This document shows positions 19,759 through 62,685 of a DNA stretch of 64,000 nucleotides, piece after piece. Positions within the stretch are counted from its first letter, which is position 1; each line of letters opens with the position of its first letter. A program made the translations under genes and the position numbers. The notes under the pieces were generated by a model. That model was not told the DNA's origin, made no database searches, and worked only from the letters and a program-made list of their open reading frames with translations. Origin of the DNA: Halocynthiibacter styelae (GTDB lineage Bacteria; Pseudomonadota; Alphaproteobacteria; Rhodobacterales; Rhodobacteraceae); contig NZ_JADCKQ010000005.1 in assembly GCF_016123485.1 (NCBI RefSeq), positions 186,001 through 250,000 of the forward strand. Reading direction: 5' to 3'.

Positions 19759-20943
19759 ATGACCCAGAAAACCGTCGTTATTGCAGGTGCCGCACGTACG
19801 CCGATGGGCGGCTTTCAGGGGGATTTCGCAGATAGTGAAGCCGCCACATTGGGCGGCGCCGCAATCAGTGGTGCGCTGGCGGATGCCGGGGCAAAAGCCG
19901 AACAAATTGAAGAACTTCTGATGGGCTGCGTTCTGCCTGCGGGTCAGGGCCAGGCCCCGGCGCGTCAGGCCGGATTTGCAGCCGGACTGGGGCAGGATGT
20001 GCCCGCCAGCACGCTGAATAAAATGTGTGGCTCCGGCATGAAAACCGCCATGATGGCCTATGATCAGATCAAGGCGGATGGCGCTGACATCATGGTCGCA
20101 GGCGGCATGGAAAGTATGACAAATGCACCATATCTGCTGCCAAAGATGCGCGGCGGTGCGCGGATCGGACATCAGAACGTGCAGGACTCCATGTTCCTTG
20201 ATGGTCTGGAAGACGCCTATGACAAGGGCCGTCTGATGGGTACATTCGCTGAGGATTGCGCCGAGAAATTCCAGTTCACCCGCGAAGCCCAGGATGAATA
20301 TGCGCTGAAATCCCTGTCCAACGCGCTGGAAGCTGAAAAAACCGGGGCCTTTGAAGGCGAAATCGTGCCCGTCACCCTGAAAACCCGCAAAGGCGATCTG
20401 GTTGTCAGCACAGATGAACAACCCGCCAAAGCCCGCCCGGAAAAGATCCCACAGCTGAAACCGGCTTTCCGCAAAGATGGGTCGGTGACGGCGGCCAATG
20501 CCTCTTCCATTTCTGACGGGGCTGCCGCACTGGTTATGGCGTCTGAAGAGGCGGCAAAAGATGCAGGCCTGAAGATCCGTGCCCGCGTGCTGGGCCATGC
20601 CAGCCACGCGCAGGAACCCGGCTGGTTCACCACCGCGCCAGTACCTGCCGCGCAGAAACTGTTGAAGAAAATCGGCTGGTCTGTGGAAGATGTGGACCTT
20701 TGGGAAGTGAATGAGGCCTTCGCCGTTGTCCCTATGGCCTTCATGCATGAAATGGGCATCACACGTGACAAAGTGAATGTGAACGGCGGTGCCTGCGCCC
20801 TTGGTCACCCCATCGGTGCATCCGGTACACGTATCATGGTAACCCTGCTGAACGCGCTTGAAAAACGTGGTTTGAAACGTGGTGTTGCTGCGATATGTAT
20901 CGGGGGCGGCGAAGGGACCGCGATTGCGATAGAGCTTGCATGA
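19759..20943 (+). CDS. phaA: Acetyl-CoA C-acetyltransferase (thiolase)
   Basis: 394 residues. All three catalytic positions of biosynthetic thiolases are present: Cys90 (NKMCGSGMKT), His350 (CALGHPIGASG) and Cys380 (ICIGGGEG), matching Cys88/His348/Cys378 of classic PhaA almost exactly. It condenses two acetyl-CoA to acetoacetyl-CoA (polyhydroxybutyrate or ketone routes) or runs in the reverse direction. The ATG at 19759 follows GGAGATGATCCC. No phaB or phaC is nearby, so atoB is an equally fair name. The last codon overlaps the start of msrC (ATGA). Confidence 0.9.
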   Translation: MTQKTVVIAGAARTPMGGFQGDFADSEAATLGGAAISGALADAGAKAEQIEELLMGCVLPAGQGQAPARQAGFAAGLGQDVPASTLNKMCGSGMKTAMMAYDQIKADGADIMVAGGMESMTNAPYLLPKMRGGARIGHQNVQDSMFLDGLEDAYDKGRLMGTFAEDCAEKFQFTREAQDEYALKSLSNALEAEKTGAFEGEIVPVTLKTRKGDLVVSTDEQPAKARPEKIPQLKPAFRKDGSVTAANASSISDGAAALVMASEEAAKDAGLKIRARVLGHASHAQEPGWFTTAPVPAAQKLLKKIGWSVEDVDLWEVNEAFAVVPMAFMHEMGITRDKVNVNGGACALGHPIGASGTRIMVTLLNALEKRGLKRGVAAICIGGGEGTAIAIELA

Positions 20944-21401
20944 CACAGGTAAATTACAAGGAGCTGGCGGCAGTGATTGCCAGCCTTGCTGAAGGTGAAA
21001 CAGATGCGGTGGCGCTGATGGCGACCATCGCCTGTGAAGTTCACCATTCTGACGATCGTTTCGACTGGACCGGGTTTTACCGGAACGTTGGCAACGACAC
21101 GCTGAAAATCGGCCCCTATCAGGGCGGGCATGGGTGCCTTGTCATCCCGTTCACCCGTGGCGTTTGCGGGGCTGCGGCAAAAACCGGCGAAGTACAGTTG
21201 GTGCCCGATGTCGAAGCTTTCCCGGGCCATATCGCCTGCGCAAGTTCCACCCGGTCCGAACTGGTTCTGCCGGTTTTCAATGGCGCGGGGGATCTGCTGG
21301 GGGTCTTTGATCTTGATAGCGATCAGCCGAATGCGTTCACCCAGGAAGATGCAGTCGCGTTCACAGAGATCCTCGCAAAGACCTTTGCCAACGCGGTCTG
21401 A
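20940..21401 (+). CDS. msrC: Free methionine-R-sulfoxide reductase (GAF-domain fRMsr)
   Basis: 153 residues, a single GAF domain. Cys66, Cys76 and Cys100 (HIACASSTRSE) reproduce the spacing 10 and 24 of Cys84, Cys94 and Cys118 in the E. coli enzyme, and the surrounding IPFTRGVCG and SELVLPVF match. It reduces free Met-(R)-sulfoxide. The start overlaps the thiolase stop by four bases, implying translational coupling, an unusual partnership. A clear terminator follows at 21428. Confidence 0.85.
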   Translation: MTQVNYKELAAVIASLAEGETDAVALMATIACEVHHSDDRFDWTGFYRNVGNDTLKIGPYQGGHGCLVIPFTRGVCGAAAKTGEVQLVPDVEAFPGHIACASSTRSELVLPVFNGAGDLLGVFDLDSDQPNAFTQEDAVAFTEILAKTFANAV

Positions 21402-21427
21402 ACATCCTTTCACACTGATTTTTTGAG

Positions 21428-21460
21428 AACTCTTGCTGCGCTGCAGCGAGAGTTTTTTCT
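21428..21460 (+). terminator. Intrinsic terminator after thiolase-msrC
   Basis: An 11-base-pair stem (AACTCTTGCTG with CAGCGAGAGTT, one G-U pair, five-base loop) is followed by a T-run TTTTTT ending about 21458. It closes the phaA-msrC operon 27 bases after the msrC stop. Confidence 0.85.
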
Positions 21461-21486
21461 TGTGCCGACTCGCTTCTTCGGGCATT

Positions 21487-21525
21487 CGTGAAAAAAATCG
21501 TGAAATTTTCACGGACAGTTTCACA
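21487..21525. promoter_or_regulatory. Four-half-site operator upstream of the XRE-cupin gene
   Basis: A perfect 15-base palindrome CGTGAAA-T-TTTCACG (21499-21513) is flanked symmetrically by a further CGTGAAA at 21487 and a further TTTCAC at 21519. Each is displaced exactly 12 bases from the matching inner half-site. It ends about 12 bases before the GTG start at 21537 and nearly touches the ribosome binding site. This is most simply an operator for the helix-turn-helix protein encoded next to it. Confidence 0.6.
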
Positions 21526-21536
21526 TAAGGTGCCAC

Positions 21537-22109
21537 GTGCGACACGAAAACCCGAATACCAGTCAAAGCCTTGGGGCAGACCTGCGGACCCTGCGCAAAG
21601 CGCGTGGGATGACATTGCAGGCGCTGGCCGATGCGCTCGGCAAATCTGTCGGTTGGCTGTCGCAGGTGGAACGGGATAAATCTGAACCTTCTGTGTCTGA
21701 TCTGCGGGCCATTGGTGCCGCACTTGATGTGCCGATCTCCATGCTGTTCGGCCAAAGCCCAGCCCCTGTGGAAGAACAGGGATATGTCGTGCGCAAAGGG
21801 GCCCGCCGCCCGATTGGATCCCGCGTCGCCGGTCTTGTCGAAGAACTTCTGTCGCCAGATCTGACCGATGACTTTGAAATGGTGCATTCGGTGTTTGAAC
21901 CGCACTCCGAAGTGAAAGAAACCGTGATCCGCCCGACCCAGGAAGTGGGTTATGTGATTTCCGGCAAGCTCGACCTCTGGATTGGCGGGCGCTATTTCAC
22001 CATTCACCCGGGCGACAGTTTCCGCATTCGTGGCGAACCACACCGCTGGATGAACCCCCATGATGAACCCTGTGTCGCGATCTGGGTGATCGCACCGCCT
22101 GTGTATTAA
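21537..22109 (+). CDS. XRE-family regulator with C-terminal cupin domain
   Basis: 190 residues. Helix-turn-helix at about residues 14-68 (LRTLRKARGMTLQALADALG, then VGWLSQVERDKSEPSV). Cupin at about 110-188 (EVGYVISGKLDLWIGG, HPGDSFRIRGEPHRWMNP) that probably senses a small ligand. This architecture often controls polyamine, amino-acid or methylamine catabolism. The start is GTG at 21537, with AAGG nine bases upstream. LysE-family and GFA genes follow at 9 and -1 bases, and two flavoproteins beyond, so this is probably the local repressor. The four-half-site palindrome just upstream suggests autoregulation. Confidence 0.85.
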   Translation: MRHENPNTSQSLGADLRTLRKARGMTLQALADALGKSVGWLSQVERDKSEPSVSDLRAIGAALDVPISMLFGQSPAPVEEQGYVVRKGARRPIGSRVAGLVEELLSPDLTDDFEMVHSVFEPHSEVKETVIRPTQEVGYVISGKLDLWIGGRYFTIHPGDSFRIRGEPHRWMNPHDEPCVAIWVIAPPVY

Positions 22110-22118
22110 GGGCGGATC

Positions 22119-22745
22119 ATGAGCTTTGAAGCCTGGACAATATTCGCGCTGTTCTGGGTCGTGTTTGTCACGACACCCGGGCCAAATGCTGTGAACTGCA
22201 TTACCAATGGCATGGCCCTGGGCTTTACTCGCGCCCTGCCCGGTGTGCTGGCGATCCTGACCCAGGCGACATTGTTCCTACTGCTGTCGGCCTTTGGTGT
22301 GACCGCCCTGATCGCGGCCTCGCCCACGGCGTTCTTCATCGCGAAAATCATCGGTGCGGGTTTCCTGATCTACCTTGGCATACGTGGTTGGCTGACAGCG
22401 AAGACGCCTGTAAAGGCGGATGAGCGCCCCGCGAAACATATCTATCTGCATGCGCTGGCAATCGCCGTGATCAACCCGAAAAGCATCGCCGGATATCTGG
22501 CGGCGTTTTCACAGTTCATCCAGCCCGGTGTGGCCGTGTGGGAACAGATGGTTGTGATCATGCCCACTGCCCTGACGCTGACGGCCCTGTCCTACCTGGG
22601 CTTCACAGCCCTTGGCGCGGGCATTGGTCGCGCAGCCCTGAAAGCCGTGTTCAACGTCTGGATCCGCCGCACCATGGCGATCTGTTTTATCATCTACGGC
22701 GTGCTTCTGGGGGCCAGCAGCACACCACAGCCGGAGGTTTCCTGA
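22119..22745 (+). CDS. LysE/RhtB-family amino-acid exporter
   Basis: 208 residues, mostly hydrophobic, with about six membrane helices. The family motif FVTTPGPNAVNCITNGMALG lies in the first loop, with GVLAILTQATLFLLLSAFGV and NPKSIAGYLAAFSQFI typical of LysE/RhtB exporters. It exports amino acids or related small zwitterions. Its position in the flavoprotein cluster makes a glycine-betaine-derived metabolite a possible substrate (inference). Its stop overlaps the next start as TGATG. Confidence 0.85.
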   Translation: MSFEAWTIFALFWVVFVTTPGPNAVNCITNGMALGFTRALPGVLAILTQATLFLLLSAFGVTALIAASPTAFFIAKIIGAGFLIYLGIRGWLTAKTPVKADERPAKHIYLHALAIAVINPKSIAGYLAAFSQFIQPGVAVWEQMVVIMPTALTLTALSYLGFTALGAGIGRAALKAVFNVWIRRTMAICFIIYGVLLGASSTPQPEVS

Positions 22746-23128
22746 TGCACAAAGGATCCTGCCAATGCGGCGCTGTCACCTATGAAATCACGGCGGAACT
22801 GCGTCCGGTTGTTGGCTGTCACTGCACGCAATGCCGTAAAACATCCGGTCATTTCTGGGCCGCGACACAGGTTGCGACCGCAGACCTGATCATCACCAAT
22901 GACGCCGGTCTCAAATGGTTCCGCGCCTCAGACACCGCACGGCGCGGGTTTTGTCAGGACTGCGGATCAAGCCTGTTCTGGCAAATGGACAGCGAGCCTT
23001 TCACATCCATCGGCGCGGGCACCCTTGATGGGGTAACCGGGCTGACAACCGCAAAGCACATCTTTGTCAAAGACAAGGGTGATTACTACGATATCTGCTG
23101 CCACGCGCAGCAAATTGATTCATACTAA
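22745..23128 (+). CDS. GFA-family zinc protein (glutathione-dependent formaldehyde-activating enzyme-like)
   Basis: 127 residues. The zinc-ligand cysteines are in the expected order: CQCGAV at 6-11, CHCTQCRKTSG around 25-35, and FCQDCGSSLFW. The founding member, Gfa of Paracoccus, was linked to S-hydroxymethylglutathione formation, but most relatives are uncharacterised. Demethylation by the two adjacent flavoproteins releases one-carbon units, so a role in handling formaldehyde is reasonable inference. It starts inside the LysE stop codon, 15 bases before the next gene's ATG. Confidence 0.8.
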   Translation: MHKGSCQCGAVTYEITAELRPVVGCHCTQCRKTSGHFWAATQVATADLIITNDAGLKWFRASDTARRGFCQDCGSSLFWQMDSEPFTSIGAGTLDGVTGLTTAKHIFVKDKGDYYDICCHAQQIDSY

Positions 23129-23143
23129 AAGGGACGGAAAAAC

Positions 23144-25594
23144 ATGTCAGATTTCCCCACAAAAGCACGTGTGGTTATTATTGGTGGCGGTATCGTTGGT
23201 ACATCCAGCCTCTATCACCTGGCGAAAAAAGGCTGGACCGATTGTGTCTTGCTTGAAAAGAACGAACTGACCGCAGGTTCCACATGGCACGCGGCTGGGA
23301 ACGTGCCGACCTTTTCGACCTCCTGGTCAATCATGAACATGCAGCGTTATTCAACTGAGCTTTACGCAGGTCTGGCGGAAGAAGTTGATTACCCGATGAA
23401 CTATCACCAGACTGGTTCCATCCGCCTGGCGCATTCCAAAGAACGCATCCAGGAATTTGAACGTGCCTGCGCGATGGGCCGTTATCAGGGCATCGAAATG
23501 GAGATGTGGACACCGGAACAGGCGAAAGAAAACTATCCGTTCCTGGAAACCCACGATCTGGAAGGTGTTCTGTTTGACCCGACCGACGGTGACATTGACC
23601 CGGCACAGGTGACACAGGCGCTGGCCAAAGGCGCACGTGACATGGGTGCCAAAATTCTGCGCTTCACCCCGGCGACCGGCGTGACCCAGAAGGAAGACAA
23701 AACCTGGATCGTTCACACCGAAAAAGGCGATATTGAATGTGATTTCGTTGTAAACGCAGGCGGTTACTACGCCCAGCGTATCGGCGAAATGTTCAAGCCA
23801 TATGGCGGCCGCACCGTGCCTATGATGGTGATGGAACACCAGTATCTGCTGACCGAACAGATCCCTGAGATCGAAGAACACGTCAAAACAACCGGTAAGA
23901 AACTGCCGCTGATCCGTGATGTGGATGTGTCTTACTATCTGCGCCAGGAAAAGAACGGCTATAACCTTGGCCCGTATGAACCAAACTGTAAGGCCCATTG
24001 GGTTGATGCAGATGACGCCATGCCAGAAGATTTCAGCTTCCAGCTGTGGCAGGAAGACATCGACCGGATTGAGGACATCGTTGTTGACGCCATGGCCCGT
24101 GTGCCACTGATGGAAACCTCCGGCGTGTCCAGCGTCATCAACGGCCCGATCCCTTATGCGCCAGATGGTCTGCCGCTGATCGGCCCAATGCCTGGCGTTG
24201 ATAACGCGTTTGAAGCCTGTGTCTTCACCTTTGGTATCGCCCAGGGTGGTGGTGCTGGTAAGGTTCTGGCGGAATGGATTGTGGACGGCCACACCGAATG
24301 GGACATGTGGTCTGTCGATCCGCGTCGCTACACCGACTATACCGATCAGGATTACTGCAACCAAAAAGGCGTGGAAGTTTACGGCAACGAATACGCCATG
24401 CATTTCCCACGCCACGAATGGCCCGCTGGCCGCGACAAGAAACTGTCACCCGTGCATGAGATGACCAAAGCCAAAGGCGCGGTTTACGGCGTGTATAACG
24501 GTTGGGAACGTGCGAACTGGTTTGCGCAGGACGGCGACGATACGTCTGAAGACAGCACACACACCTGGGGTCGTTCCGGCCCATGGGCGCAGCGCATCAA
24601 GGAAGAATGCGAAGCGGTACGTGACGCGGTTGGTATCCTTGATCTGCCAGGTTTCTCTCGCTTTAACCTCGAAGGTGAAGGCGCTGCGGAATGGCTGCGT
24701 GGCATGGTCACCGGTGGTCTTCCAAAGGCTGGCCGTATGAACCTTGTGTATTTCTCCGATGACCGTGGTCGTATCCTGACAGAAATGTCCTGCATGCGTC
24801 ACGCGGAAGATCACTTCACCATGATCACCGCCGGTACTGCCCAGTGGCATGACTTTGAACTTCTGAAGAAAGATCTGCCTGCAGGTCTGTCCCTGACAGA
24901 CCACACCACCGAGTGGGGCACAATGATCGTGACCGGGCCGAAAACCCGTGAGCTGTTCGAAGGTCTGGGCACAGAAGCAGATCTGACATCCGGCTGGCTG
25001 ACCCATCAGGATGCTGTTGTGGCCGGCACACCGTGCCGTCTGGTACGTGTGTCCTTCGCCGGTGAACTTGGCTGGGAAGTGCACTGTCTGAACGAAAACC
25101 AGGCTGCGCTTTACACAGCGATCACGGGCGCCGGTGCGAAACCGTTTGGCATGTATGCGCTTGACAGTCTGCGTCTGGAAAAAGGCTACCGTGCATGGAA
25201 GGGCGATCTGTCGTCTGATTATTCCATGCTGGAAGGTGGTCTGGGCCGCTTTGTGAAGCTTGATAAACCACAGGATTTCCGCGGCAAAGCAGCGATCCAG
25301 TCTGAGAAGCAGCAAGGCGTTAAGAAAGGCTTTGTCACCCTGATCGTGGATGCGGGCGATACGGATGCGCCTTACATGTCATGTATCTGGAAAGACGGCG
25401 AAATTGTCGGTGAAACCACATCCGGTGGCTGGGGGTATCGAGTGAATGCATCCATCGCCCTGGGCATGGTGCGCGCGGATCTGGCAGTTCCTGGCACAGA
25501 ACTGGAAGTGGAAATCTACGGCGAGAAATGTCGCGCAGTTGTTCAGGAAGACCAGCCAATCTGGGATCCCGCCAACGAACGGCTGCGGGCTTAA
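23144..25594 (+). CDS. Dimethylglycine/sarcosine dehydrogenase-type flavoprotein 1 (FAD + GcvT domains)
   Basis: 816 residues. N-terminal FAD-binding motif VVIIGGGIVG (Gly14, 16, 19), then STWHAAG with His49 in the position that covalently binds FAD in dimethylglycine dehydrogenases. Residues about 430-810 form the aminomethyltransferase (GcvT) domain (SDDRGRILTEMSCMRHAEDH, VSFAGELGWEVHCLNE, RAWKGDLSSDYSMLEGGLG), where folate receives the one-carbon unit. After His49 it has NVPTF instead of LIAQL as in its paralogue, so the substrate may differ. The gene is cytoplasmic and tightly linked to its neighbours (15 bases before, 1 base after). Confidence 0.85.
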   Translation: MSDFPTKARVVIIGGGIVGTSSLYHLAKKGWTDCVLLEKNELTAGSTWHAAGNVPTFSTSWSIMNMQRYSTELYAGLAEEVDYPMNYHQTGSIRLAHSKERIQEFERACAMGRYQGIEMEMWTPEQAKENYPFLETHDLEGVLFDPTDGDIDPAQVTQALAKGARDMGAKILRFTPATGVTQKEDKTWIVHTEKGDIECDFVVNAGGYYAQRIGEMFKPYGGRTVPMMVMEHQYLLTEQIPEIEEHVKTTGKKLPLIRDVDVSYYLRQEKNGYNLGPYEPNCKAHWVDADDAMPEDFSFQLWQEDIDRIEDIVVDAMARVPLMETSGVSSVINGPIPYAPDGLPLIGPMPGVDNAFEACVFTFGIAQGGGAGKVLAEWIVDGHTEWDMWSVDPRRYTDYTDQDYCNQKGVEVYGNEYAMHFPRHEWPAGRDKKLSPVHEMTKAKGAVYGVYNGWERANWFAQDGDDTSEDSTHTWGRSGPWAQRIKEECEAVRDAVGILDLPGFSRFNLEGEGAAEWLRGMVTGGLPKAGRMNLVYFSDDRGRILTEMSCMRHAEDHFTMITAGTAQWHDFELLKKDLPAGLSLTDHTTEWGTMIVTGPKTRELFEGLGTEADLTSGWLTHQDAVVAGTPCRLVRVSFAGELGWEVHCLNENQAALYTAITGAGAKPFGMYALDSLRLEKGYRAWKGDLSSDYSMLEGGLGRFVKLDKPQDFRGKAAIQSEKQQGVKKGFVTLIVDAGDTDAPYMSCIWKDGEIVGETTSGGWGYRVNASIALGMVRADLAVPGTELEVEIYGEKCRAVVQEDQPIWDPANERLRA

Positions 25595-25595
25595 G

Positions 25596-26603
25596 ATGGA
25601 CGGGCGGTTTCAGGATATGGCCGGGACAGAATGCGCTGCGGATGCGGCGCAGATGTCCTGCCACGTCGATATTCTGCTGACCGAGGGCTTTGTTCTGACA
25701 GAGCTCGCGTCGGTTGTTGATGTGCTGCGCATCGCCAACCGCGTGTCGGCCCACCCGCTGTTTCAATGGCACTACCGGTCCCGCCATGGCGGGCCGGTGG
25801 GCTGTCTGGCGGGCCTTGGGACCGATACGACGCCATTTCCTGAACGCCCCGACGCCGATTATGTTTTTATTCTGGGCAACTCCGATCCGGACTGCCCGGA
25901 ACTTTCTATGCGTTCTGTGATTTCCCGTTACAGTTACCGCAATATTAAGGTTCTTCTGCTGTCAGAAGCCGCCAGCCGTTATATCGCGGAAACCGGCGAA
26001 CAGCACAGCAACCACACGACCCACTGGGAAAACCGCGCCCTTTTGGATGAACGCGGCACGCCTGGCGAAGGATCCTACGCCCTGGCTGTGGATGACGGCA
26101 AACTCATGACCTGCGCGGGCATGGGATCGACCGTGGATGTGACCCTTTCCCTCTTGCGCAATCACATGTCCGCCGCCGCTGTTGCGACGGTATCTGACAT
26201 TATGCTGCATGAAAAAATCCGGGGCTTTTCAACCCTGCAACCCTTTGGTGGCAAAGCGCTTTCCATCACCGGCGACACAGACCTCGACCAATGTATTGAG
26301 CTGATGCAGAACAATATGGAAGAGCCCCTGCAAATCGGTGAACTTGTGTCTCTGATCGGAATTTCATCCCGTTCGCTTGAACGCAAATTCCGTCAGGTTC
26401 TGGATTCCACGCCAAACACCTACTACCGCGAATTGCGCCTGAACCGGGCCAATACGCTGCTGCTGAACACCTCTATGTCGGTGCGCGAAATCAGCCTAGC
26501 CTGTGGTTTCCCCAATGGGTTTTCCAGCCTGTTTCGCGGCCATTTTGGCGTGACGCCGCTGGCGCGCCGCAAAAGCCGGTTCAAAGTACAAATCAAGCTA
26601 TAA
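25596..26603 (+). CDS. GbdR-like AraC regulator with DJ-1/PfpI (GATase1) domain
   Basis: 335 residues. An N-terminal GATase1-like domain (HVDILLTEGFVLTELASVVD, YVFILGNSDPDCPE) precedes a C-terminal AraC double helix-turn-helix (ISSRSLERKFRQVLDSTPNT, ISLACGFPNGFSSLFRGHFG). In Pseudomonas the regulator of this architecture, GbdR, senses glycine betaine and dimethylglycine and activates dgc, gbc and sox genes. Its location between two dimethylglycine-dehydrogenase-type genes supports the same role here. The ATG at 25596 follows the previous stop by one base. Confidence 0.85.
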   Translation: MDGRFQDMAGTECAADAAQMSCHVDILLTEGFVLTELASVVDVLRIANRVSAHPLFQWHYRSRHGGPVGCLAGLGTDTTPFPERPDADYVFILGNSDPDCPELSMRSVISRYSYRNIKVLLLSEAASRYIAETGEQHSNHTTHWENRALLDERGTPGEGSYALAVDDGKLMTCAGMGSTVDVTLSLLRNHMSAAAVATVSDIMLHEKIRGFSTLQPFGGKALSITGDTDLDQCIELMQNNMEEPLQIGELVSLIGISSRSLERKFRQVLDSTPNTYYRELRLNRANTLLLNTSMSVREISLACGFPNGFSSLFRGHFGVTPLARRKSRFKVQIKL

Positions 26604-26643
26604 ATACCTGATTTCCGTCAGGTTCGGCGTAAATGAGGTATTT
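26602..26643 (+). promoter_or_regulatory. Inverted repeats between the GbdR-like gene and flavoprotein 2
   Basis: AAATACCT (26602-26609) is the complement of AGGTATTT (26636-26643), which runs into TTTTT. Inside, CCTGA-TTTCCG-TCAGG (26607-26622) can form a competing hairpin that uses part of the outer left arm. The element could be a terminator of the upstream operon, an activator site, or a switch between two folds. Confidence 0.4.
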
Positions 26644-26696
26644 TTAACCCGGATTTCATGCCAGATCTGGGACAAATGAATCTTAAGGAGATCGCC

Positions 26697-29147
26697 ATGA
26701 GCACCCTTCCTAAAAAAGCCCGTGTCGTCATCGTCGGTGGCGGTGTCATTGGCTGTTCCGTTGCCTATCACCTGACCAAACAGGGTTGGGAAGATGTGGT
26801 TCTGCTGGAACGCAAACAGCTGACATCCGGCACCACCTGGCACGCCGCCGGTCTGATCGCGCAGCTGCGTGCGACCGCGAATATGACCAAGCTGGCGAAA
26901 TACAGCCAGGAACTCTACGGCGCGCTGGAAGAGGAAACCGGTGTTGCGACGGGTTTCAAACGCTGTGGTTCCATCACGGTGGCCCTGACCGAGGAACGCA
27001 AAGAAGAAATTTACCGTCAGGCCGCGATGGCGCGGGCCTTTGGTGTTGAGGTTGAAGAAATCTCGAATGAGCGCGTCGCGGAAATGTACCCGCATTTGAA
27101 TATCGAAGACGTTAAAGGTGCGGTCTATCTGCCGAAAGACGGTCAGGGTGATCCGGCCAACATCGCATTGGCGCTGGCCAAAGGCGCGCGCCAACGTGGC
27201 GGCCTTGTGAAAGAGCGTATCAAAGTCACCGGCATGACCAAAGACGGTCGCAAAGTCACCGGCGTTGACTGGGTGTCTGACGATGGGTCTGAAAGCGGCC
27301 ACATTGAATGTGATATGGTTGTGAACTGCGCCGGTATGTGGGGCCATGAGGTTGGCAAAATGTCCGGCACCAACGTGCCGCTGCATGCCTGTGAACATTT
27401 CTATATTGTGACCGAAGCCATTGACGGGCTTACACAATTGCCGGTTCTGCGTGTGCCGGATGAATGCGCTTACTATAAGGAAGACGCGGGCAAAATGTTG
27501 CTGGGCGCTTTTGAACCAACGTCCAAACCATGGGCCATGGATGGTATCCCGGATACATTCGAATTCGATCAGCTGCCGGAAGATTTCGATCACTTTGAAC
27601 CGATCCTGGAAAACGCCTGTAACCGTATGCCGATGCTGGCTGAGGCTGGCATTCACACGTTCTTTAACGGTCCGGAAAGCTTTACCCCGGATGATGCTTA
27701 TCACCTGGGTCTGGCGCCAGAGATGGACAACGTCTGGGTTGCGGCTGGCTTTAATTCCATCGGCATTCAATCCGCTGGTGGCGCTGGCATGGCCTTGGCG
27801 CAATGGATGGAAGCGGGCGAAAAACCCTTTGATCTGGGCGACGTAGACATCAGCCGGATGCATCCGTTCCAGGGTAACAAACAGTATTTGTTTGAACGGT
27901 CCAAAGAAACCCTGGGCCTGCTGTATGCGGATCACTTCCCATACCGCCAGAAAGCCACCGCACGCGGCGTGCGTCGCACACCGTTCCATCATCACCTGCT
28001 GGAACAGGGCGCTGTGATGGGCGAACTGGGCGGCTGGGAACGGGCAAACTGGTTTGCGAATGAAGGTCAGGCGCGCGAATATCAGTATTCCTGGAAACGT
28101 CAGAACTGGTTTGAAAACTCTGCCGCCGAACATAAGGCCGTGCGTGAAAATGTTGGCATGTATGACATGTCATCCTTCGGTAAAATCCGTGTAGAAGGTC
28201 GCGATGCAGAAGCCTTCCTGAATTATGTCTGCGGTGCGAATATGTCCGTTCCTACCGGAAAAATCGTTTATACGCAGTTCCTTAACTCGCGCGCAGGAAT
28301 CGAAGCCGACGTCACCGTGACCCGCCTGTCAGAGACGGTGTATCTGGTGGTGACACCTGCGATCACACGCCTGGCGGATCAAACCTGGATGCGCCGTCAC
28401 GTAGGTGATTTCAACGTGGTGGTCACTGATGTGACCGCTGGCGAAGCCGTTCTGGCGGTGATGGGTCCGAATGCCCGTGATCTGCTGGCGAAAGTATCAC
28501 CGAACGATTTCTCCAATGATACCAACCCCTTCGGTACGGCACAGGAGATTGAGTTGGGCATGGGGCTGGCGCGCGCGCACCGTGTGACTTACGTGGGTGA
28601 ACTTGGCTGGGAGCTGTATGTGCCTGCTGAGATGGCCGGTCACGCCTTTGAAACCCTGCACGAAGCGGGTCAGGATATGGGGCTGAAACTGTGCGGCATG
28701 CATATGATGGACAGCTGCCGGATTGAAAAAGGCTTCCGCCACTTTGGCCATGACATCACCTGTGAAGACAACGTGATTGACGCGGGTCTTGGTTTCGCCG
28801 TGAAGGCCGACAAACCTGATTTCATTGGTAAATCTGCCGTGATGGAGCGCAAAGAAACCGGGCCGAAAATGCGTATGGTTCAGTTCAGACTGTCTGATCC
28901 CGAACTGCTGCTGTACCATAATGAACCGATCATTCGTGATGGCGAAATTGTGGGTTACATCAGTTCTGGCAACTACGGCCACACTCTGGGCGCGGCGATT
29001 GGCATGGGCTATGTGCCGTGCGAAGGCGAGAAACCAGCCGATGTTCTGGCGTCGACTTACGAGATCGACGTTATGGGCACACGGGTAAAAGCGGAAGCAT
29101 CGCTGAAGCCAATGTACGACCCGAAATCAGAACGCGTGAAGGTCTGA
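26697..29147 (+). CDS. Dimethylglycine/sarcosine dehydrogenase-type flavoprotein 2 (FAD + GcvT domains)
   Basis: 816 residues from the ATG at 26697, chosen for the perfect AAGGAG nine bases upstream. FAD motif VVIVGGGVIG, then TTWHAAGLIAQL with His49 for covalent FAD, followed by the canonical wording of dimethylglycine dehydrogenases. The GcvT half includes TYVGELGWELYVPAEMAG-type wording, CRIEKGFRHFGHDI and ISSGNYGHTLGAAIGMGYV. It has exactly the same length as flavoprotein 1 and is clearly its paralogue, so the pair arose by duplication, but their post-His49 segments differ. It is separated from the upstream operon by 93 bases with inverted repeats. Confidence 0.88.
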   Translation: MSTLPKKARVVIVGGGVIGCSVAYHLTKQGWEDVVLLERKQLTSGTTWHAAGLIAQLRATANMTKLAKYSQELYGALEEETGVATGFKRCGSITVALTEERKEEIYRQAAMARAFGVEVEEISNERVAEMYPHLNIEDVKGAVYLPKDGQGDPANIALALAKGARQRGGLVKERIKVTGMTKDGRKVTGVDWVSDDGSESGHIECDMVVNCAGMWGHEVGKMSGTNVPLHACEHFYIVTEAIDGLTQLPVLRVPDECAYYKEDAGKMLLGAFEPTSKPWAMDGIPDTFEFDQLPEDFDHFEPILENACNRMPMLAEAGIHTFFNGPESFTPDDAYHLGLAPEMDNVWVAAGFNSIGIQSAGGAGMALAQWMEAGEKPFDLGDVDISRMHPFQGNKQYLFERSKETLGLLYADHFPYRQKATARGVRRTPFHHHLLEQGAVMGELGGWERANWFANEGQAREYQYSWKRQNWFENSAAEHKAVRENVGMYDMSSFGKIRVEGRDAEAFLNYVCGANMSVPTGKIVYTQFLNSRAGIEADVTVTRLSETVYLVVTPAITRLADQTWMRRHVGDFNVVVTDVTAGEAVLAVMGPNARDLLAKVSPNDFSNDTNPFGTAQEIELGMGLARAHRVTYVGELGWELYVPAEMAGHAFETLHEAGQDMGLKLCGMHMMDSCRIEKGFRHFGHDITCEDNVIDAGLGFAVKADKPDFIGKSAVMERKETGPKMRMVQFRLSDPELLLYHNEPIIRDGEIVGYISSGNYGHTLGAAIGMGYVPCEGEKPADVLASTYEIDVMGTRVKAEASLKPMYDPKSERVKV

Positions 29148-29176
29148 TTTTAACCGGTCTTAACGACAGATGAATA

Positions 29177-29217
29177 ACGAAAGCGGGGAGAGGCGACTCA
29201 CCCCGTTTTTTCTTCGT
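29177..29217 (+). terminator. Terminator after flavoprotein 2
   Basis: CGGGG-N12-CCCCG (29184-29205) is followed by TTTTTTC; outer AACGAA/TTCGTT (29177 and 29212 regions) can extend the stem. It lies about 30 bases after the stop codon. Confidence 0.75.
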
Positions 29218-29256
29218 TAACAAGGGAAATCCGGCGATTTAGGCGATACACAAACC

Positions 29257-29286
29257 ATACACACATGATGCACATCTTATGCATAT
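29257..29286 (-). repeat. TGCAT 11-base-phased array, copy A
   Basis: Read on the minus strand: ATATGCATAAGATGTGCAT (plus 29268-29286), with TGCAT, TGCAT and a degenerate TGTAT at exact 11-base steps. The 19-base core is identical in copies B (43302) and C (62634). It lies in the 275-base gap before rarD, about 137 bases from the start codon, opposite in orientation to the gene. Confidence 0.6.
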
Positions 29287-29422
29287 AGAATGTGGATTTT
29301 CCCGAATGAACGCTGCGCACGGGGCAAAAGGTTAACATCACCATCTGTGATCCCCTGGCGCACGAAACGCATCTTTCCTTCGCGACAGGACCTGCCATAA
29401 AGGCGGTCTGGAGGATTGCGCG

Positions 29423-30319
29423 ATGACAGATCAGGTGATTGAAGATAAGGACACGCCAAAGGGGCTGGCCCTTGCGGTGACGGTCTATCTGCTGTGGGGG
29501 TTCCTGCCGCTTTACATGAAACTATTGTCTCATATTCCTGCCGCCGAGGTTGTTGCGCATCGCGTCATCTGGTCTGTTCCGATTGCCGGGCTTGTGCTGA
29601 TTGTGATGCGCCGCACAGGCGATCTGTCTGAGGCCCTGCGCAACCCGAAAACCCTGATGGTGGCCATGATCCCCGCAGCGCTTGTATCGCTGAACTGGGG
29701 GATTTACGTCTGGGCGATTACGTCGGGCAACGCATTGGACGCGGCGTTGGGATATTACATGAACCCGCTTTTCAGCATCTTGTTGGGGGCAATCATTCTG
29801 CGCGAAAAGCTGTCGCCCTGGCAGAAAGTTGCGGTGGTCATTGCCGGCCTTGCGGTTGCGGTCCTGCTGACCAACGCCAGTGCCGTGCCCTGGGCCGCTT
29901 TTGGCATGATGCTGACCTGGGGGTTCTATGCGTTTTTCAAGAAATCTCTGCCCATTGGTCCAAACCAGGGCTTCCTGCTTGAGGTGCTTTTGCTGACGCC
30001 CCCCGCCATTCTGTACCTGATCTGGGTGCATGCCAGCGGCGGTGGATTTTTCCTCACATCCATGGACAACACCTTGTTACTGCTGGGTTGTGGCGTGGTC
30101 ACCGCAGTGCCGTTGCTGATCTATGCCAACAGCGCAAAATTGCTGCGCCTGTCGACAATCGGGATTTTGCAGTATATCGCACCGACGATGATATTCCTGT
30201 CCGCAATCTTCCTGTTCGGTGAAGAGGTGGACGCCGCCCGGCGCATGGCCTTCCCTCTGATCTGGCTGGCGCTGGTGATTTATTCCGTGCCGCTGATCCG
30301 GCAGATGAGAGCAAAATGA
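29423..30319 (+). CDS. rarD: EamA-family transporter RarD
   Basis: 298 residues with about ten membrane helices. The RarD signature is clear: GLALAVTVYLLWGFLPLYMK, AAEVVAHRVIWSVPIAG, SLNWGIYVWAITSGNALDAA, and LGYYMNPLFSILLGAIILRE. It is an inner-membrane drug/metabolite-type transporter whose natural substrate is unknown. GGAGG lies eight bases before the ATG. Its stop overlaps the next gene (ATGA). A phased TGCAT array lies upstream. Confidence 0.9.
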   Translation: MTDQVIEDKDTPKGLALAVTVYLLWGFLPLYMKLLSHIPAAEVVAHRVIWSVPIAGLVLIVMRRTGDLSEALRNPKTLMVAMIPAALVSLNWGIYVWAITSGNALDAALGYYMNPLFSILLGAIILREKLSPWQKVAVVIAGLAVAVLLTNASAVPWAAFGMMLTWGFYAFFKKSLPIGPNQGFLLEVLLLTPPAILYLIWVHASGGGFFLTSMDNTLLLLGCGVVTAVPLLIYANSAKLLRLSTIGILQYIAPTMIFLSAIFLFGEEVDAARRMAFPLIWLALVIYSVPLIRQMRAK

Positions 30320-30963
30320 GCGACGATTACAACCCGCCCCAGGACCCGCTGGTGGTCATTCATACTGACCACCACCTGCTGTTGGTCGACAAACCTGCCG
30401 GGCTTTTGTCTGTGCCGGGCAAAGGCGAACATCTGGCGGATTGTTTGCTGGCCCGCGTCCAGAAAGCCTTTCCCGAGGCGCTGCTTGTGCATCGACTGGA
30501 CCGCGACACATCTGGCGTCATGGTCTTTGCCCTGACCCAGCAAGCACAACGCCACCTGGGCCTGCAATTTGAGAAACGTCAGACAAAGAAAACCTATGTC
30601 GCGCAGGTGCACGGGCAATTGGAACCCAAAGACGGCACGGTGGATCTGCCCCTGATCGTCGACTGGCCCAATCGCCCGCGCCAGATGGTCTGCCATGACA
30701 CCGGCAAAGAGGCGATCACCGACTGGAAAGTTGTGCGTTACAGCGATGATCAGACCCGCGTGCGCCTGTTCCCGAAAACCGGGCGAAGCCACCAGTTGCG
30801 GGTGCATATGCTGGCCATGGGCCACCCGATTATGGGGGATCCGTTTTATGCGACCGGTGACGCCCTGGAAGCCCCGCGCCTGATGTTGCATGCCGAAACC
30901 CTGCAACTGCGCCACCCGGATGGCGGCAAGGGCATGCGCTTTACTGCGAAATGCCCGTTTTAG
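30316..30963 (+). CDS. RluA-family RNA pseudouridine synthase
   Basis: 215 residues. The catalytic motif HRLDRDTSGVMVFAL contains the conserved Asp62, preceded by LLLVDKPAGLLSVPGKG. PKTGRSHQLRVHMLAMGHPI and GDPFYA follow, in RluA/RluC order. There is no S4 domain, and the length fits the short RluA subtype that modifies 23S rRNA 746 and tRNA position 32. The exact target cannot be told from sequence. It is translationally coupled to rarD by a four-base overlap. Confidence 0.88.
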   Translation: MSDDYNPPQDPLVVIHTDHHLLLVDKPAGLLSVPGKGEHLADCLLARVQKAFPEALLVHRLDRDTSGVMVFALTQQAQRHLGLQFEKRQTKKTYVAQVHGQLEPKDGTVDLPLIVDWPNRPRQMVCHDTGKEAITDWKVVRYSDDQTRVRLFPKTGRSHQLRVHMLAMGHPIMGDPFYATGDALEAPRLMLHAETLQLRHPDGGKGMRFTAKCPF

Positions 30964-31046
30964 GCTGACGACACACGCTGACCATGGGTAAAGCTTGAAT
31001 ATACGCCCCGATCCCCGCATGTTTGTGCAAGGATTGAGAGGGCAAA

Positions 31047-32168
31047 ATGTATAAAGCGGTTATCTCTGGCAGTGGTGTCTTCACCCCGGAAAATGTCATT
31101 ACAAATGCGGAACTTGTGACCGCGTTTAACGCTTATGCGGACAAGTGGAACGCAGAACACGCGGATGCGATTGAGGCCGGCAATGTTGAGGCCATGGGTC
31201 ATTCCAGCGAAGACTTCATCGTTGCAGCGTCAGGCATTCATCAGCGCTATGTCATGGATAAAACCGGCGTTCTGGATCCCGATGTGATGCACCCGCTGCT
31301 GCGCCAGCGCGACGATGATGAACCGGGGATCATGGCGGAAATGGCAGTGGACGCCTGCGGAAAAGCTCTGGCCCAGGCCGGGAAATCAGCCGAAGACGTG
31401 GATGCGGTGATTGTCGCAGCTTCCAACATGGAACGCGCCTATCCCGCGATCGCAATTGAGGTGCAGACGCTGCTGGGCATCCAGGGGTTTGGCTTTGACA
31501 TGAATGTCGCCTGTTCCTCTGCCACCTTCGGTATTCAGGCCGCCGCCGATATGGTGCGCGCTGGTTCTGCCCGCGCGATCCTGGTGGTGAACCCTGAAAT
31601 CTGTTCCGGGCATCTGGAATGGTGCGACCGCGATTGTCACTTTATCTTTGGCGATGTGGCGACCGCCGTTCTGGTGGAACGCGATGATCTGGCGCGGGAT
31701 GGATCATTTGAGATTGTGTCCACCCGCTGCGCCACGGAATTTTCTAACAACATCCGCAATAACAATGGCTTTCTGCGCCGCTCCCGCCCTGATGGCGTCA
31801 AAGACCGCCGCGATATGCAGTTCGTGCAAAACGGGAGGAAAGTGTTTAAGGAAGTGCTGCCCATGGTGTCAAAGCACATCCTGGGGCATCTGGGGGATGA
31901 AGGCATTGCCACGGATGATCTGAAGCGGCTTTGGCTACATCAGGCGAATAAATCCATGAATGATTTCATCGGGAAGAAAGTGCTGGGGCGTGTGCCTGAG
32001 GACGGCGAGCAACCCAATATTCTGCAGGATTACGCGAATACAAGTTCCGCAGGCTCTATCATTGCCTTCAGCAAATATTCTGAGGATCTGAAGGCCGGCG
32101 ATACCGGCGTGATCTGCTCTTTTGGGGCAGGATATTCGGTGGGGTCCGTGGTTATCCGGCGCAATTGA
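31047..32168 (+). CDS. KAS III-family beta-ketoacyl-ACP synthase of the octanoyl-CoA-using type
   Basis: 373 residues, about 50 longer than FabH, owing to insertions near residues 30-55 and 72-90 (ADKWNAEHADAIEAGNVEAM; LDPDVMHPLLRQRDDDE). The triad is Cys156 (MNVACSSATFGIQ), His298 (LWLHQANKSMN) and Asn331 (YANTSSAGS). The wording is very close to Pseudomonas aeruginosa PA3286, which condenses octanoyl-CoA with malonyl-ACP and so shunts beta-oxidation products into fatty-acid synthesis. I assign that role by recall of the family. It stands alone, with a strong terminator after it. Confidence 0.85.
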   Translation: MYKAVISGSGVFTPENVITNAELVTAFNAYADKWNAEHADAIEAGNVEAMGHSSEDFIVAASGIHQRYVMDKTGVLDPDVMHPLLRQRDDDEPGIMAEMAVDACGKALAQAGKSAEDVDAVIVAASNMERAYPAIAIEVQTLLGIQGFGFDMNVACSSATFGIQAAADMVRAGSARAILVVNPEICSGHLEWCDRDCHFIFGDVATAVLVERDDLARDGSFEIVSTRCATEFSNNIRNNNGFLRRSRPDGVKDRRDMQFVQNGRKVFKEVLPMVSKHILGHLGDEGIATDDLKRLWLHQANKSMNDFIGKKVLGRVPEDGEQPNILQDYANTSSAGSIIAFSKYSEDLKAGDTGVICSFGAGYSVGSVVIRRN

Positions 32169-43269: not shown

Positions 43270-43301
43270 TTAACAACACCTTGCCCGCATCGTGCGCGCC
43301 A

Positions 43302-43343
43302 TATGCATAAGATGTGCATAGGAAGTGCATGGATTGTGCATAT
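43302..43343 (+). repeat. TGCAT 11-base-phased array, copy B
   Basis: Four perfect TGCAT boxes start at 43304, 43315, 43326 and 43337, exactly 11 bases apart, with a weaker TGCGC one step earlier (43293). The first 19 bases (ATATGCATAAGATGTGCAT) are identical to copies A and C. It lies about 190-230 bases before the small exported-protein gene at 43530, in the same orientation. The rest of the 260-base intergenic region shows nothing else I can name. Confidence 0.65.
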
Positions 43344-43529
43344 GATATTCTGGCGTTTTGGCTTGTTTCATCTGCTCACAGATTGGTGTGCATGTGTGAA
43401 CATTAAAAACGCAATCCTCACGGTTCTGTGTCTTGAAGGTGATCTGAAGCACCCCCAAATCAATCACATCGGAAGCAACAAGACTTCCTCCAAAATTCGA
43501 AACACCCAGACCCTTGAAAGGTTAACGCT

Positions 43530-43841
43530 ATGAAAACTGTAATCGCATCCATCCTCGCCCTGACTGTTGCTGCTCCTGCTTTTGCGGGTGCCAAAGATGT
43601 TGAGGCCCACTTCGCCCAGGACAACACCGGTATTGAGAGCGTTGTTGTTGAACGCTCAAGCCCCGTCACCGCAGAAGCCGTTGAAATCTTTGCTGATCTG
43701 GCGCTTGAGGCTGGCACTGGCATCGAGACACAAGCAAATCCTGTTGTCGGTGCAACCCTGTCTTCCAAGGGCGGCGTGAACCCGGTAGCCGCCGCATGGT
43801 TCGCAGGCCAGCTGGCATCTGAGGATGCATCTGACCGGTAA
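43530..43841 (+). CDS. Small exported protein of unknown function
   Basis: 103 residues. A Sec signal peptide (KTVIASILALTVAAPAFAGA) is followed by a short acidic, cysteine-free mature part (about 84 residues, including HFAQDNTGIESVVVERSSPV and NPVVGATLSSKGGVNPVAAA). AAAGG lies eight bases before the ATG. The terminator at 43871 follows. I do not recognise the family. The upstream phased repeat array may control it. Confidence 0.75.
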   Translation: MKTVIASILALTVAAPAFAGAKDVEAHFAQDNTGIESVVVERSSPVTAEAVEIFADLALEAGTGIETQANPVVGATLSSKGGVNPVAAAWFAGQLASEDASDR

Positions 43842-61453: not shown

Positions 61454-62473
61454 TCAGGCAGCGAGGAAACGCCCCTCATACTGCTTAAGATCCAGCCGTG
61501 CCGTGGGGCCGTAACACCCGGCATTGCTGCGCAACTCAGGAAAGATTGAAAACATCTCTGCGCGGCTTTCGCAGGTCACAGCATTCAATCCCTCATCCCC
61601 CGGGAAAAAGCTTTCACTCAGCAGCCCGTGGGTCCGGACGATTTCATGTTGATCGAACATAAGATGACAATAGGTAACATGCGTCAGTTCATGATCCTGA
61701 CGGATCTGATCCCCCAGAAGGAACCGTGTCGCCGCCAGAACCTGACTTTGGCCGAACATCAGATTGCACTTGTACTCCTGCATCAGCACGCGGTGCCCCG
61801 GCGACAGACAAACATCAACCTCGGGGCAGCCGGGACCAAACTGATGTGCCCGGATGCGAACAGGGGCAAAACGCGCAAACTCTGGTTCTTGCAACGCGAC
61901 ATCCCGGCATCCGATCCAGCGTACTGGCTGCAACCCATTGTCCTCTGTGATGACAAGATCACCAGGCTGTAAGGTTTCAATCTTTCTGGGGCCAGAAACT
62001 GTGTCGATTAACGTCCCTGCCACAAAACAAGGCATCCCCGGAGTCGGTGATGTGGTGGTGACATATCCATCCGTCGGATTGCCACTCAGGGAACTGCCGG
62101 AACCCGCAGTGCCAATGCCATCAGAAACAGTATTGACCGGAACCAGGCCAGCCCCTCCGGCGGTGACAGTTCCGCCTTCAGTGAAACTGTTAAACTGCAA
62201 CACCGTCGTGCCATCAATCAGGGCGATTGCGCCAAAGCGATTCAGACCATTAAAATTGGTGGGGGAATTGCTGTTGAGGACATAAATATCCTTCCCGTCA
62301 ACAGTCGCTGACGGAGCAAAATTCAGCACACTGGAACTGCGCAATGAACCATTCGAATTGTAGACCTCAATGGTCAGAGCGGACACAGGTGTGCCCACAT
62401 CGACCATGATTTCTATGAAATCCTGATTACCACCGCCAGTGTACTTAATCTCAGAGATGAACGGCGCTGCCAT
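61454..62473 (-). CDS. Lamin-tail-like and Hint-domain protein
   Basis: 339 residues. Residues 1-100 (PFISEIKYTGGGNQDFIEIM, DVGTPVSALTIEVYNSNGSL) resemble a lamin-tail/IgG-like adhesion domain, followed by a Gly/Thr/Ser-rich linker. Residue about 150 begins a Hint (hedgehog/intein) domain: CFVAGTLIDTVSGPRKIETL, QPGDLVITEDNGLQPVRWIG, and VCLSPGHRVLMQEYKCNLMF. Such Hint_2 proteins are common in Rhodobacteraceae and are often secreted, with self-processing at the cysteine possible. No Sec signal is seen, so type I export is a guess. The upstream region is A/T rich and contains array copy C. Confidence 0.8.
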   Translation of the reverse strand: MAAPFISEIKYTGGGNQDFIEIMVDVGTPVSALTIEVYNSNGSLRSSSVLNFAPSATVDGKDIYVLNSNSPTNFNGLNRFGAIALIDGTTVLQFNSFTEGGTVTAGGAGLVPVNTVSDGIGTAGSGSSLSGNPTDGYVTTTSPTPGMPCFVAGTLIDTVSGPRKIETLQPGDLVITEDNGLQPVRWIGCRDVALQEPEFARFAPVRIRAHQFGPGCPEVDVCLSPGHRVLMQEYKCNLMFGQSQVLAATRFLLGDQIRQDHELTHVTYCHLMFDQHEIVRTHGLLSESFFPGDEGLNAVTCESRAEMFSIFPELRSNAGCYGPTARLDLKQYEGRFLAA

Positions 62474-62623: not shown

Positions 62624-62661
62624 TGCAGCACATATGCATAAGATGTGCATGCATAGTGCAT
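62624..62661 (+). repeat. TGCAT 11-base-phased array, copy C
   Basis: TGCAT boxes start at 62635, 62646 and 62657, with a weaker TGCAG at 62624, all exactly 11 bases apart; one extra TGCAT overlaps at 62650. The core ATATGCATAAGATGTGCAT (62632-62650) equals copies A and B. It lies about 160 bases upstream of the Hint-domain gene, in the gap between it and fdsA, in the opposite orientation to the gene. Confidence 0.65.
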
Positions 62662-62685
62662 CTGTAAATCGGCGCCAAAAACGAA

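Follow-up and report, generated by a model that had tools for sequence, protein, structure and literature searches.

Three intergenic gaps in a 64,000-nucleotide stretch of the Halocynthiibacter styelae genome (the window) carry short rows of TGCAT boxes phased at 11 bases, and the question that they raise is what reads them: a transcription regulator, as the first-pass annotation suggested, or something that acts on the chromosome as a whole. We reread the window sequence and confirmed four perfect TGCAT boxes on the plus strand starting at 43304, 43315, 43326 and 43337 (43304..43341). They belong to the best copy (array 2, 43291..43348, plus strand, profile E 1.5e-16), in which an ATA leader precedes the boxes TGCATAAGATG-TGCATAGGAAG-TGCATGGATTG-TGCATATGATA; a putative accessory TTAA lies 34 bp ahead of its box 1 (43270..43273). 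The other two copies are weaker: array 1 (29240..29294, minus strand, E 5.2e-13) has four boxes 11 bp apart, two of them TGCAT and two TGTAT, and array 3 (62625..62664, plus strand, E 1e-9) has a degenerate TGCAG box followed by three TGCAT boxes (62635, 62646 and 62657). The 19-base core ATATGCATAAGATGTGCAT, said to recur at all three places, is present exactly at 43301-43319 (plus), 29268-29286 (minus) and 62632-62650 (plus) and is absent from shuffled sequence. The distances to a start codon, first put at 140-230 bases, are 137 bp (29423), 189 bp (43530) and 159 bp (minus-strand start at 62473).

Number, structure and distribution of the arrays

A loose two-box pattern with one mismatch is found 16 times in the window, with 9.5 expected and four of 100 shuffles reaching 16. 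This mild enrichment makes the window alone weak evidence, and it is the genome-wide scan that settles the reality of the family. Over the 3.72-Mb H. styelae genome the pattern TGCAT-N6-TGCAT-N6-TGCAT occurs 57 times exactly and 148 times at up to two mismatches, against a single occurrence of the reversed pattern. The possibility that such hits might be no more frequent than in control sequence, which the first-pass annotation had itself raised, is removed by a genome-wide ratio of 148 to 1, and the arrays are intergenic. A 60-bp profile, which was built from strong sites and whose site listings favour high scores, gives 43 sites for H. styelae as a whole and, for the window, exactly the three reported arrays.

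Alignment of 40 H. styelae sites gives four 11-bp units of approximately TGCATAAGATG-TGCATAGAATG-TGCATGGTTTG-TGYATGGGATA, each consisting of a TGTGCAT core and a 4-bp VRVW spacer, head to tail at exact 11-bp spacing. Unit 1 is preceded by ATA and by a C that is fixed at -9; TTAA boxes at -22 and -33 are weaker and keep the 11-bp register of the arrays. TGCAT is kept in 282 of the 294 boxes from four genomes, the spacer hexamers vary within VRVW (50 different ones among 120 H. styelae boxes), and the flanks are not homologous between sites, conservation in the 40-site alignment being confined to the phased box positions. Near-invariant cores, variable spacers and non-homologous flanks together point more to a protein-binding site that is being maintained than to a repeat that is decaying.

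The profile counts in five array-bearing genomes, H. styelae and representatives of four other genera, are 43, 28, 57, 56 and 56. Two negative genomes have none and the congener Halocynthiibacter namhaensis RA2-3 has two, so that presence of the arrays is close to all-or-none across genomes; a few genomes with one to four sites were seen in the Rhodobacteraceae profile sample. Related arrays occur in about 4% of the Rhodobacteraceae genera sampled: the pattern was found in 14 of 395 genomes and the profile in 12 of 296 (in the latter sample a count of 18 per genome means at least 18), the assemblies being drafts or metagenome bins apart from the single-contig genomes. Exact-pattern scans were positive for Thalassovita taeanensis, Thalassobius sp. 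I31.1, Vannielia litorea, Actibacterium, Oceanicola sp. m2 (one chromosome record), Pelagimonas, Cognatishimia, Marivivens and Amaricoccus. Outside the Rhodobacteraceae the strict three-box pattern was found in none of about 380 alphaproteobacterial genomes. Searches of Rfam and of plasmid and phage collections gave zero matches to the array, which answers the concern that it might belong to a known repeat family, and a literature search found no paper describing the motif.

Orientation relative to genes and to replication

The direction of neighbouring genes does not predict that of the arrays, which lie on the same strand as the neighbouring gene in 58 of 116 cases, as expected at random, and in some cases are flipped relative to a gene that they flank in different genera. 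In a first set of 97 sites, 28-29 lay between convergent genes and 10 between divergent genes; in a second set of 95 with called neighbours, 24 were convergent, 19 divergent and 52 co-directional, and the shift between convergent and divergent gaps is not significant (P 0.065). Genes were called with a simple codon model trained on the window, which is less reliable in other genera and placed six of the 16 arrays of genome G272 inside called frames. The neighbouring genes listed have no common theme. In H. styelae, H. namhaensis and Oceanicola sp. m2 the lpd start codon has an array 21-22 bp upstream; H. namhaensis retains only one other, and for this reason the array at lpd may have gained a local role.

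What the arrays follow is replication. We measured polarity as array strand against local GC skew, a proxy for replication direction, the origin not having been mapped. Genome G391 is a single contig of 2.97 Mb, in which most arrays at 0-1.65 Mb are on the minus strand and most of those at 1.88-2.96 Mb on the plus strand. Among the sites listed, 20 of 20 in G391 and 18 of 18 in Oceanicola sp. m2 are opposite to the skew, including sites within local skew reversals. Adding four more G391 sites and 16 from G272, the pooled count for three genera is 57 of 58 against the skew at +-3 kb and 56 of 58 at +-10 kb. About 18 further genomes, represented by 8-kb loci, give 70 of 85, rising to 59 of 63 where the absolute skew is at least 0.03. 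Nearly all arrays thus take their orientation from the replication strand, not from genes. The array strand is itself G-rich yet stands on the C-rich side, the reverse of what would be expected from composition. If the leading strand is G-rich, the arrays would point 5' to 3' from terminus to origin. Spacing among the sites listed is more even than random in G391 (P 0.003), not in Oceanicola sp. m2.

In H. styelae the polarity is weaker (31 of 40 against the skew at +-3 kb, 26 of 40 at +-10 kb). On the strand facing the arrays KOPS motifs predominate in G391 (56:23) and Oceanicola sp. m2 (84:29) and, weakly, in G272 (76:59), with no clear signal in H. styelae (88:77); both weaknesses in H. styelae are partly due to the weak skew of that genome. 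All three arrays of the window run against the local skew, which is negative at both plus-strand arrays. The sole minus-strand array lies in the sole segment of the window with positive skew (20001..32000), which suggests that about 12 kb was inverted relatively recently and that the array was reversed along with the surrounding DNA. Real-looking exceptions in H. styelae include an array near rplO and the one at hisG. Both H. styelae (contig C10, position 3260) and Actibacterium atlanticum have an array at the same place, between hisG and the adjoining gene, and both of these run with the skew.

Two rival readings were weighed. The first-pass annotation saw in the arrays the hallmark of binding sites for an OmpR/PhoB-type response regulator, which may mark an undescribed regulon. 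On this reading head-to-tail dimers would bind upstream of the regulated genes, possibly together with CtrA on phased TTAA boxes. The geometry it described stands: the arrays are a family of head-to-tail, 11-bp-phased half-sites on one DNA face, intergenic and far above chance, and this is consistent with a winged-helix-like protein bound in tandem. Some arrays lie 100-230 bp from starts, three genomes share the position upstream of lpd, and both H. styelae and G391 have TTAA at -33/-34 and -22/-23 in one register, as in a CtrA box (at -33 in 11 and at -22 in 8 of 40 H. styelae sites, and similarly in G391); the accessory TTAA may be part of a CtrA-type box TTAA-N7-TTAA. The regulon itself is not supported, because a quarter of the arrays (24 of 95, in convergent gaps) have no adjoining promoter and the strand of the arrays is random with respect to genes, and the analysis linked no response regulator to them; moreover the TTAA boxes are absent in G272, and the arrays differ from OmpR/PhoB operators in having at least four units and in being oriented by replication. 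We consider such an operator unlikely. Nor do we favour a dispersed small repeat without cellular function, spread by a mobile mechanism with a bias for insertion in the lagging or leading strand, which is improbable even though the distribution is patchy, the copies are many and some strand-coupled insertions produce a similar strand bias. One part of the data does look like this: a 103-aa putative secreted protein gene (43530..43841, plus strand, no Pfam match) forms with its leader and terminator a cassette present in eight copies in the H. styelae genome, each with an array at its left end, 170-182 bp upstream of the gene. Outside these eight loci the arrays lack homologous flanks or an element boundary, and thus the sequence shared up to sharp ends that defines MITE or REP elements. 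The near-invariant TGCAT beside variable spacers is unlike neutral decay, the core is kept across genera whose leaders differ, and none was found on the plasmids or phages searched. At four loci the cassette terminator, downstream of the 103-aa gene, is followed by TTTTCCGG units in a short tandem repeat.

A candidate polar nucleoprotein site

We think it rather probable that the arrays are polar nucleoprotein sites, with one protomer per helical turn, for a candidate protein of chromosome replication or segregation. A seven-base core plus four bases per turn, repeated head to tail, fits a row of protein on one face, and a DNA-binding protein would assemble in this way on four strong units and a degenerate leader that has ATA before box 1. 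Because the arrays are dispersed and nearly all of one polarity relative to replication, the complex would be directional, and a role in replication or segregation is the most likely one. A single polarity kept along both replichores is what such a complex would show if forks or translocases came upon it from one side. It could act as a one-way gate, which forks pass from origin to terminus and not in reverse, as at Ter sites, or as a polar landmark for a translocating machine or one that organises or segregates the nucleoid, although 28-60 sites per genome are few for a translocase guide. A weaker option is a strong filament with another task that would be tolerated only in the orientation that forks can pass. 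More tentatively, the arrays may make up a chromosome-wide one-way system, in which dozens of polar sites per chromosome and a sporadically inherited candidate reader would enforce or read replication direction, as a gate for forks or a guide for segregation; such a system would have an evolutionary origin separate from those of Tus, RTP and FtsK/KOPS.

Few DNA marks are polar with respect to replication (KOPS, Ter and Chi), and only a small number of clades are known to have fork traps. The arrays resemble these marks in behaviour and match none of them in sequence, architecture or reader. A family that is sparse, clade-limited, tandem and nearly strictly polar would be a new natural experiment, since its gain or loss between sister species would make effects on termination, over-replication, inversions and segregation directly testable. 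It would also show that an operator-looking motif can be a replication-oriented mark, and a dedicated reader acting on forks or segregation would, if real, constitute a new system.

Tus-Ter and RTP-Ter traps are polar, have several sites per chromosome, occur in few clades and evolved more than once, and fork-trap proteins control their own expression through a site in the promoter of their gene (PMC10331603). The arrays share the restriction to few clades and the uniform polarity (57 of 58 sites in three genera, with GC skew as the proxy), whereas their 28-57 sites over the whole chromosome and tandem 11-bp units are different. Tus was rejected as the reader: PF05472 scored above its cut-off in none of 17 genomes, with a positive E. 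coli control. No recurring DNA-binding neighbour that could be a reader gene beside its site, in the manner of tus or rtp, was found at 40 H. styelae sites or in the other genera.

FtsK and DnaA were also weighed as readers. KOPS is the best known polar chromosomal motif and is polar in Paracoccus and relatives (PMC13342612); like the arrays it is oriented along replichores and chromosome-wide, and this polarity is what speaks for arrays that orient FtsK through its gamma domain. KOPS is, however, an abundant 8-bp GGGNAGGG, while the arrays are unlike it in sequence, about 60 bp long, too sparse, limited to certain genera and, for the most part, on the other strand. FtsK is encoded in every genome tested, its gamma-domain recognition segment does not differ between genomes with and without arrays, and those with arrays have no recurrent additional gamma-domain protein (one genome, G044, has two hits), all of which makes reading by FtsK very improbable. 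Weak DnaA-box clusters that titrate or load DnaA are hardly more credible, despite a likeness to oriC low-affinity arrays and datA/DARS in the TGTGNAT core and in the 9-mer with 2-bp spacing: some units fit, TGTGCATAA being TTATGCACA and fitting TTATNCACA, and viral contigs mix TGTGCATAAG repeats at 11 bp with canonical TTATCCACA boxes. Against this, almost every unit has C at its centre, unlike the strong TGTGGATAA; the fit is poor at box 1 and at the GG and CA endings, and most units have CC, CT or TG at positions 1-2 of the 9-mer; and relatives that share the DnaA recognition helix lack the arrays. With that helix identical in array-positive and array-negative genomes and no recurrent paralogue, DnaA and a DnaA-like plasmid replicase were both rejected as readers.

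The stbDRs of plasmid R388, which act with StbA as a centromere-like site, also consist of 11-bp direct repeats with a TGCAT core (TTGCATCAT plus 2 bp; PMC3098194). They differ from the arrays in being plasmid-borne, in forming two sets of five and in their spacer. StbA was rejected as the reader after a search, in which distant homologues could be missed, gave no hit in H. styelae, G002 or G391 and elsewhere only E values above 0.03, array-negative genomes included; in array-bearing genomes the best E value was 0.05.

A few observations stand beside these comparisons. In Oceanicola sp. m2 an array closely follows the C-terminal end of ftsK (contig C1, 3605270-3605318), which is probably a coincidence. 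Each genome encodes one DnaA, except that H. styelae has an extra short PF08299 frame: a second Bac_DnaA_C domain (59 bits; contig C11, 15791-15994) in a 176-aa frame that was not found in two congeneric genomes. The arrays of viral contigs were set aside as DnaA-box-like phage origins or simple repeats, different from the Rhodobacteraceae array; in eleven such contigs the TGTGCATAAG repeats lie amid canonical TTATCCACA boxes, and these contigs probably carry DnaA-dependent phage origins.
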